Shown piece by piece: positions 6,827-8,258 of a stretch of 64,000 nt of DNA (position 1 is its first letter; every line of letters begins with the position of its first letter). The notes under the pieces are model-generated. The model worked only from the letters and a program-made list of their open reading frames with translations, was not told where the DNA came from and did no database searches. Source of the stretch: Flavobacteriia bacterium (lineage in GTDB: Bacteria; Bacteroidota; Bacteroidia; Flavobacteriales_D; Crocinitomicaceae). The stretch lies in NCBI GenBank assembly GCA_947463445.1, contig CANHRS010000001.1, forward strand, positions 1 to 64,000, written 5' to 3'. A program made the translations under genes and the position numbers.

Positions 6827-6886
6827 ACTAATTTACAATACGGTTCAAAAACGAATGCGAATCAAATTTATTTTAAATTTTTTGCA

Positions 6887-6918
6887 TTGTACTATATTAA
6901 CGAATTTATTTACCTTTG
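6887..6918 (+). promoter_or_regulatory. promoter for the tRNA-Arg locus: TTG-N21-TACCTTTG
   Basis: TTG at 6887-6889 and TACCTTTG at 6911-6918, matching the Bacteroidota -33/-7 consensus. Confidence 0.5.
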
Positions 6919-6981
6919 CCTAAGCAAAAACATCCTGCTTTTAGAAACAACCGATGATAATCGATAGTTTAAAGCAAAAAA

Positions 6982-7012
6982 AGCTCCGTGGCGCATCCCG
7001 ATAGCTATCGGG
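6982..7012 (+). repeat. 5' tRNA partial copy (gctccgtggcgca) fused to 18-bp palindrome TCCCGATAGCTATCGGGA
   Basis: 13 bp identical to 7034-7046 of the intact tRNA; palindrome at 6995-7012. Confidence 0.85.
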
Positions 7013-7032
7013 AGTAAAGCGAAGTAGATAAT

Positions 7033-7106
7033 GGCTCCGTGGCGCAATTGTATAGCGCATCAGATTTCGGCTCTGAGGGTTGGGGGTTAGAATCCCTCCG
7101 GGGTCA
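7033..7106 (+). tRNA. tRNA-Arg, anticodon TCG
   Basis: Full cloverleaf: GGCTCCG/CGGGGTC acceptor, GCGC/GCGC D stem, TCAGA/TCTGA anticodon stem with loop TTTCGGC, GGGGG/CCCTC T stem. Confidence 0.9.
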
Positions 7107-7111
7107 CAAAA

Positions 7112-7154
7112 TTGGGGGTTAGTCCCGAAAGCTTTCGGGACCCTCCGGGGTCAC
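7112..7154 (+). repeat. 3' tRNA partial copy split by 18-bp palindrome TCCCGAAAGCTTTCGGGA
   Basis: ttgggggttag (7112-7122) + palindrome (7123-7140) + ccctccggggtcac (7141-7154); same as tRNA 7080-7107 with AAT replaced by the palindrome. Confidence 0.85.
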
Positions 7155-7161
7155 GATTATG

Positions 7162-7202
7162 AATCCCATTTAATTGTTAATCAGTTAGATGGGATTTTTA
7201 TT
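7162..7202 (+). terminator. candidate terminator of tRNA locus
   Basis: aatcccat...atgggattttta inverted repeat followed by T run. Confidence 0.5.
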
Positions 7203-7379: not shown

Positions 7380-8258
7380 ATGAAAATAATAATATTTCTT
7401 CTGTGTTTTGTTTCAATTGTATCGAAATTAAATGCACAAAATAATTTTGAATATAATTTTCTTGGTCGGGAATATTTGCATTACAAAGGGGTGCAATTTA
7501 AACTTAATGTAAATGAATATTTCGGATTAGAATATTCTTTTTATTCAGACATTATAGAATGTCAATTATCATACAATAAAAATGTAAAATACCAAGACCC
7601 TAATATGGTGGGGGCTACGCTCAAAGATTCGTTAGTTAATAAAGTTTATCTTGTTGAAAAAATAATTGATTATAATGGTAATGAATTATCAGATAAAACC
7701 GTTAATTACAGTAGTACAAATCCAATATTAGTGTTAAAAGATTTACACAATGGAGAAATAATATTCTATAAATACAATAAAGATATATCTATAGAATTTC
7801 CTTTCTTAACATCTAAAATAATCTACCCTAACAATTTTTTCTGTTCAAAAATTGAAAAAGAAATAGATGAATTTACCAATGAAATCAAATTTAGCACACC
7901 AACATTGAGTGATGGAGAAATCTCACCTGTGTCAATATTAAAGATTATATCGAAGGGTAAAACAATTTATTATTTATCATTAAGAACACAAGGTAGTACT
8001 ATCAATATAAATAAAACAGGTGTAATTATTTTATTCCAAGATGGAACAAAATGGTCAAAAGACGCTAAAATAGACGCAGATGCTGGTAGAAATGGATTTG
8101 ATTATTCAGCATTTATTACATTAAATCCAAATGACCTTGCCATTTTCTCATCAAAGAAAATTAAAAAATTCAGACTTTATATTTATGATCAAGAAATAAG
8201 TCCTCGAAATGCTGATCTTTTTAAATATTATGTAGATTGTATTAAAACGATAAAATAA
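7380..8258 (+). CDS. secreted protein of unknown function
   Basis: 292 aa ORF with signal peptide MKIIIFLLCFVSIVSKLNAQ. Confidence 0.65.
   Translation: MKIIIFLLCFVSIVSKLNAQNNFEYNFLGREYLHYKGVQFKLNVNEYFGLEYSFYSDIIECQLSYNKNVKYQDPNMVGATLKDSLVNKVYLVEKIIDYNGNELSDKTVNYSSTNPILVLKDLHNGEIIFYKYNKDISIEFPFLTSKIIYPNNFFCSKIEKEIDEFTNEIKFSTPTLSDGEISPVSILKIISKGKTIYYLSLRTQGSTININKTGVIILFQDGTKWSKDAKIDADAGRNGFDYSAFITLNPNDLAIFSSKKIKKFRLYIYDQEISPRNADLFKYYVDCIKTIK

Follow-up and report, generated by a model that had tools for sequence, protein, structure and literature searches.

Palindrome-bearing pieces around an intact tRNA-Arg gene in Bacteroidota: a possible relic of a tRNA and GIY-YIG endonuclease cassette

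How did an intact tRNA-Arg gene come to stand between two broken pieces of itself, each with an 18-bp perfect palindrome in place of loop bases? The locus lies in a 64,000-nucleotide stretch of a Flavobacteriia genome (the window), for which the original prediction had described this arrangement from the letters alone. The anatomy was seen directly, and the sequence, ARAGORN and a repeat analysis confirmed every element of it (Table 1). The coordinates of the terminator and of the 3' piece (7112-7154) held, whereas the 5' piece was corrected from 6982-6994 to 6983-6995 and the end of the tRNA from 7106 to 7107. In the following, G000 denotes the genome of the window, other G numbers the comparison genomes and L numbers the loci. 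G054, G001, G485 and G077 have the same promoter and leader ahead of the tRNA, and co-transcription of the partial copies with the tRNA in the window, as had been proposed, is plausible.

Table 1. Features of the tRNA-Arg locus, with positions in the window
Feature	Position	Strand	Basis or remark
Probable Bacteroidota-type promoter, TTTG ... TAccTTTGc	6881..6919	+	read from sequence; putative function
5' remnant of tRNA-Arg GCTCCGTGGCGCA, positions 2-14 (acceptor 5' strand, D stem 5' strand)	6983-6995	+	
Palindrome TCCCGATAGCTATCGGGA substituting D-loop ATT (positions 15-17) of 5' remnant	6996-7013	.	
Remaining D arm of 5' remnant, positions 18-25, GTAAAGCG	7014-7021	+	
Spacer, copy of tRNA leader	7022..7032	+	agtagataat resembles pre-remnant leader agcagataat in G001
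Intact tRNA-Arg (TCG)	7033-7107	+	ARAGORN; Rfam RF00005, 59.4 bits
3' remnant, T stem 5' strand and T-loop start, TTGGGGGTTAG	7112-7122	+	
Palindrome TCCCGAAAGCTTTCGGGA substituting T-loop AAT of 3' remnant	7123-7140	.	
3' remnant, 3' strands of T stem and acceptor stem, CCCTCCGGGGTCAC	7141-7154	+	
Terminator hairpin and T run, homologous to G054 terminator	7162..7202	+	sequence reading and comparison

In full extent, the 5' piece spans 6983-7021 (tRNA positions 2-25) and the 3' piece 7112-7154 (about positions 47-73). The repeat analysis aligned 6983-6995 with 7034-7046 of the intact tRNA at 13/13 identical positions, 7112-7122 with 7080-7090 at 11/11, and 7141-7154 with 7094-7107 at 14/14. 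The segment GTAAAGCG at 7014-7021 showed one mismatch to GTATAGCG of the intact tRNA, and the copy in G001 was identical at 8/8 positions. When up to two mismatches were allowed, the palindrome was found in the 64-kb window just in the two tRNA pieces (chance expectation 0.00). A homing endonuclease gene of the small GIY-YIG type was not found in the window. In the leader, at 6951-6965, there is a decayed hairpin CCGATGATAATCG with a counterpart CCGATAACAATCGG in G001, and this hairpin could be an earlier member of the palindrome family.

The palindrome family TCCCGAWAGCTWTCGGGA comprises 18 exact copies in G000 and four near variants, with 0 matches to the reversed-pattern control. The AT-type palindrome occurred in 30 of 100 genomes of the family to which G000 belongs, where the reversed pattern had no match, and a scan of GTDB genomes detected at least 118 stretches with the palindrome. 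Among the GTDB matches listed, one record was titled uncultured bacterium and all others Bacteroidota taxa, in agreement with the earlier impression that these palindromes recur in Bacteroidota. Most AA-type copies of G000 are part of tandem arrays with a 7-bp unit (gacgagtgacg) or stand in a ccctcctt/aagggagg context; its AT-type copies are within tRNA pieces in four cases out of five. Of the 70 AT-type copies in the family sample, 21 were within a partial copy of the adjoining intact tRNA, compared with about 0.2 expected by a rough estimate from the genome share near tRNAs, so the predicted enrichment beside tRNA fragments was indeed present in this family. Across a phylum-wide sample, however, only 3 of 125 copies were in tRNA pieces and the majority were outside tRNAs, which makes the palindrome a general dispersed element rather than a tRNA-specific one. 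The suggested targeting of tRNA loops thus applies within the family, where loop sites are hit and 3-4 nt replaced, but not as a general rule.

Two other origins of the palindrome were rejected. Half-sites without a partner half numbered 13, nearly all of them decayed palindromes, against 430 full palindromes in a sample chosen for palindromes or tRNAs, and this scarcity speaks against a TIR remnant of a longer element (IS or MITE). As for insertion into hairpin loops generally, complementarity of the flanks was not above shuffles in the family (11/48 versus 7.7 expected at 4 bp) and was above shuffles in the phylum sample (12/120 versus 3.3 expected at 5 bp), indicating a partial preference only. 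Palindromes were also noticed at hairpin positions of what appears by sequence to be RNase P RNA (rnpB) at L114, L132, L138 and L153.

Each interrupted sequence was compared with an uninterrupted copy nearby, and the palindrome proved to substitute A-N(1-2)-T. From 38 loci, the replaced stretch measured 3 nt in 27 instances and 4 nt in 6, and the reversed-flank control gave none at either length. The stretches lost were mostly AAT, ACT, AGT, ATT, AGCT and AATT, and the 7-bp arrays and a RAYT gene followed the same rule. It thereby becomes possible to test how one class of very small dispersed palindromes originated. The original prediction contains neither this rule nor the empty sites, the newcomer tRNAs or the GIY-YIG genes at analogous loci, all of which were seen directly.

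In the tRNA pieces of the family, the palindrome occupies constant D-loop or T-loop positions. D-loop pieces break at tRNA position 13-14 and restart at 17-18, and in a T-loop case the sequence runs from 58 to 62 across the palindrome. A partial copy accompanied 36 of 219 distinct tRNA genes by a loose 10-nt criterion, in a survey of five genomes picked partly for such pieces, hence non-random, together with the genus-wide Arg, Ser and Leu loci. Most of the upstream partial copies had the palindrome or a variant, and the others had a different hairpin at the same loop; in G000, all four piece-bearing tRNAs have the palindrome. A second palindrome, TCCGTCNNNNGACGGA, follows the anticodon-loop CATA in 3' copies of tRNA-Met. 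Several further arrangements were noted. At L128 (about 7700-7809), behind a GIY-YIG gene, a partial copy of tRNA-Thr has a different palindrome, CCTGTCTGCCGACAGGCAGG, in its T loop. Tandem repeats of a unit made of tRNA 5' piece, palindrome and spacer precede the tRNA at L067, L066 and L383. At L284 (G066:C166:293-370), the AA palindrome lies in a 3' piece of tRNA-Arg that is followed by a copy of the tRNA-Arg terminator, and the intact tRNA-Arg is on another contig.

Relatives of G000 document gain and loss. At the tRNA-Arg locus, G054 is an empty site lacking the 5' remnant that G001 possesses, and the 3' piece is common to G000, G486, G485 and, in decayed form, G077. A further-downstream tRNA-Arg 3' remnant was not found within 100 kb in G001. 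As the pieces and an empty site are found in independent genomes, an assembly artefact, a concern raised beforehand, is excluded. At the tRNA-Ser locus, ten genomes including G001 and G054 are empty, G000 and G077 are filled and G486 is decayed; the downstream flank is ancestral, and therefore a 5' piece can arise without a visible larger insert. At the tRNA-Leu locus, G001 and G054 are empty. Downstream of this tRNA-Leu in G000 (L257/L496, 9858-10869), the DNA is wholly unlike that of G001 and G054 while the upstream leader is near-identical, and the contig ends 0.9 kb on.

At some loci the intact tRNA is a newcomer. The tRNA-Leu locus of G077 carries a 5' remnant that reads GCCCGAG, like L256 of G000, and has the same leader; its intact tRNA reads GCCCAGG. 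In G061, the tRNA-Leu 5' remnant is likewise GCCCGAG, the ancestral host allele, and the intact GCCCAGG differs from it. At the Arg locus of the window, G485 and G077 have an intact tRNA reading AGCTCTG... and a palindrome-bearing 3' remnant CCCTCCGGGGTCAC as in the sister species. The remnants were assigned to ancestral alleles by hand, on draft genomes. Since the remnant is the ancestral allele and the intact tRNA differs at these loci, the intact tRNA replaced the gene of the remnant, at least there.

Furthermore, GIY-YIG endonuclease genes adjoin such pieces in relatives. In G077 and G061 the arrangement of the window recurs, with a GIY-YIG gene separating the intact tRNA from the 3' piece. 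The tRNA-Leu locus of G077, in the same genus (L063/L504), has the AT palindrome in the D-loop piece, the AA palindrome in the T-loop piece and the endonuclease gene. A closely similar cassette is present in G061 of another genus (L047), with a newcomer tRNA 95% identical and the same GCCCGAG type of ancestral 5' remnant; its GIY-YIG identity was recognized by motif and not by profile search. At the tRNA-Met loci, the segment from the intact tRNA-Met to the palindrome-bearing 3' copy is a GIY-YIG ORF (PF01541), and such an ORF also lies between intact tRNA and 3' piece at Val (L370), Thr (L128) and Leu (L063, L110) loci. At L191, the ORF is between the 5' D-loop piece and an intact tRNA-Phe. 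The five ORFs scanned (L442, L191, L348, L370 and L128) matched PF01541 with E values of 5e-12 to 8e-18, and those of L063, L110, L066 and L071 were found by a PF01541 genome search (E of 1e-10 to 5e-7). The stop codon of the ORF is often inside the palindrome of the partial copy (L110, L370, L128, L047 and the tRNA-Met loci). By a hand count, 7 of 16 small GIY-YIG genes were within 300 bp downstream of a tRNA (binomial 4e-17). A general association of palindrome and GIY-YIG gene outside tRNA loci was rejected, at 2 of 125 under a strict motif filter that missed several genuine ones.

We propose that the window holds an endonuclease-less relic or minimal form of a cassette of tRNA and GIY-YIG gene that invaded a tRNA gene, and we regard this reading as evenly poised. 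The tRNA-Arg gene would have been split by a copy of itself, with the outer pieces as remnants of the earlier gene and the central tRNA as the working copy. A complete cassette, as in the relatives, would consist of a working and often recoded tRNA, a terminator and a small GIY-YIG gene. The endonuclease might first cut the resident tRNA gene; repair would then import the cassette with its rescue tRNA; and the dispersed palindrome would replace A-N(1-2)-T in the D, T or anticodon loop, disabling the leftover pieces. By analogy, we infer that the GIY-YIG protein would cut tRNA genes, that the cassette would home and that the window would once have possessed the gene. A relic is something we infer at this locus, because a PF01541 search of G000 (91% complete) found just UvrC and a 296-aa protein and no small GIY-YIG gene, and because the intact tRNA of the window does not differ in sequence from its remnants or from the G054 tRNA and is not recoded, so that the window by itself gives no sign of a newcomer. 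Further observations count against a cassette: three of the four piece-bearing loci of G000 have a 5' piece only, the 5' piece at the Ser locus goes with no visible larger insert, the palindrome is not linked to GIY-YIG genes outside tRNA loci, and in several cassettes the 3' piece is as similar to the cassette tRNA as to the host tRNA.

The main rival is a local duplication with no cassette, in which template switching would insert the 18-bp palindrome in a tRNA loop and, at the same time, the nascent hairpin would slip, duplicating 30-60 bp of leader and tRNA arm; survivors would be only those arrangements that retained an intact tRNA. Such an event would suit the way in which pieces stop near where the D stem or T stem ends, the leader sequence included in the duplicated unit (G001, L067, L070, L071), the 57-nt net gain of G000 at tRNA-Leu relative to the near-identical empty leaders of G001 and G054, and the lack of a small GIY-YIG gene in G000. 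It leaves unexplained, however, the intact tRNAs that are unlike their remnants (G077 Leu, G485/G077 Arg and G061 Leu) and the GIY-YIG genes in the same arrangement. We consider it possible but somewhat unlikely.

It is less probable still that the pieces are functional RNA, with palindrome-extended D- or T-arm hairpins in the precursor aiding folding or processing of the tRNA. Over 22 loci, the mean predicted pairing of the acceptor stem of the intact tRNA was 0.46 with the palindrome, compared with 0.24 for the native loop (p=0.005) and 0.28 for a shuffled 18-mer (p=0.003). For the full transcript of the window, the predicted pairing was 0.58 with both palindromes and 0.02 with native loops. 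The folding test suggests that native loops would disturb the intact tRNA. However, random 18-mers were equal in the window (0.51) and random palindromes no better (0.45), so any advantage may lie in the breaking of the loop rather than in the palindrome itself; in the window, RNA insulation is not specific to the palindrome. A functional role is also at odds with sister species without any pieces and with decayed palindromes (L316, L276, L411). Some 3' pieces lie past the terminator (L420, L374) or past the endonuclease ORF (L063, L047, L110), which makes the processing signals suggested in the original prediction unlikely.

REP-type mobility, in which a RAYT (Y1 transposase) would move the palindrome and tRNA loops would be one target among others, is very improbable. 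A Y1_Tnp gene was present in 27 of 30 palindrome-positive and 41 of 70 palindrome-negative family genomes (Fisher p=0.002, ignoring genome size and phylogeny), but none of the RAYT-like genes inspected was flanked by the palindrome, neither a GTAG nor a CGTC tag was present, no constant tag appeared in the flanks of 70 family copies, and in G001 and G041 the palindrome is found within decayed RAYT genes. With a weak genome-level association and no flanking copies, this mobilization was set aside. The two latter copies, L056 (G001:C31) and L057 (G041:C1), come from two species of the genus and are at the same site of the decayed genes, which are of the RAYT type of Y1 transposase; there the palindrome apparently substitutes AATT of a V-x-N-W motif. 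Scars of attachment sites of elements integrating in tRNA genes are the most improbable origin: partial copies do lie beside intact tRNAs and foreign DNA follows the tRNA-Leu of G000 compared with G001 and G054, but the distances between copies are tens to a few hundred bp, the retrieved cassettes, 50-700 bp long, showed no integrase, D-loop pieces predominate, and att duplication would not place a palindrome in a loop.

Rickettsia palindromic elements (RPE) and the very small mobile repeats of cyanobacteria are tiny elements inside genes and other repeats. The palindrome studied here resembles them as a very small palindromic element inside genes, but it differs in sequence and phylum, in the strict A-N(1-2)-T replacement and in the strong link to tRNA remnants. 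RPE are discussed together with CGTC-tagged palindromes and with REP/BIME elements, which have RAYT transposases; some families are reported to occur within small palindromes (PMC3733652). Among known palindromes, REP elements and the CGTC-tagged ones come nearest, being likewise short and dispersed in many copies; unlike them, the present family has no GTAG/CGTC tag and no adjoining RAYT, is a perfect 18-bp palindrome and replaces 3-4 target bases. Phage SegB-type GIY-YIG endonucleases are found together with tRNA genes and cause the tRNA segment to be amplified in tandem, and for SegB of T6, the endonuclease gene was reported to share a sequence at its 3' end with a tRNA end (PMC13096335). 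The loci described here share with this free-standing homing endonuclease a GIY-YIG gene beside tRNA genes and the tandem repeats of tRNA segments reported there. Unlike phage SegB, however, they are chromosomal loci of bacteria in which the host tRNA gene survives as broken pieces with palindromes in place of the loops, and at some of them the cassette tRNA is unlike the tRNA that it displaced. In a literature search that scarcely covered subscription journals, we found neither palindrome strings nor tRNA-GIY-YIG cassettes in Bacteroidota, nor any description of palindrome-capped tRNA remnants.

In synthetic cleave-and-rescue gene drives, a nuclease breaks an essential gene and a recoded rescue copy is carried on the element. 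The cassette proposed for the window would, by analogy, follow the same logic. Tentatively, and with less confidence than in the relic itself, we suggest that a natural selfish element of this kind targets tRNA genes of Bacteroidota: its nuclease would destroy the gene, a resistant tRNA would be supplied and the palindrome would cap the pieces, the window being a fossil of such an event. The newcomer tRNAs unlike the displaced ones in G077, G061 and G485 fit, without proving, an enzyme that cuts the empty allele and spares its own. If true, tRNA pieces with palindromic loops, common yet overlooked in Bacteroidota, would record repeated takeover of essential tRNA genes by tiny cassettes, forming a natural counterpart to the engineered drives, a route by which genera exchange tRNA genes and a cause of wrong annotation of tRNAs and GIY-YIG genes. 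Small GIY-YIG genes at L468, L469 and L478 lie away from tRNAs, between direct repeats of 13-50 bp, which suggests that the same class of element uses other targets.
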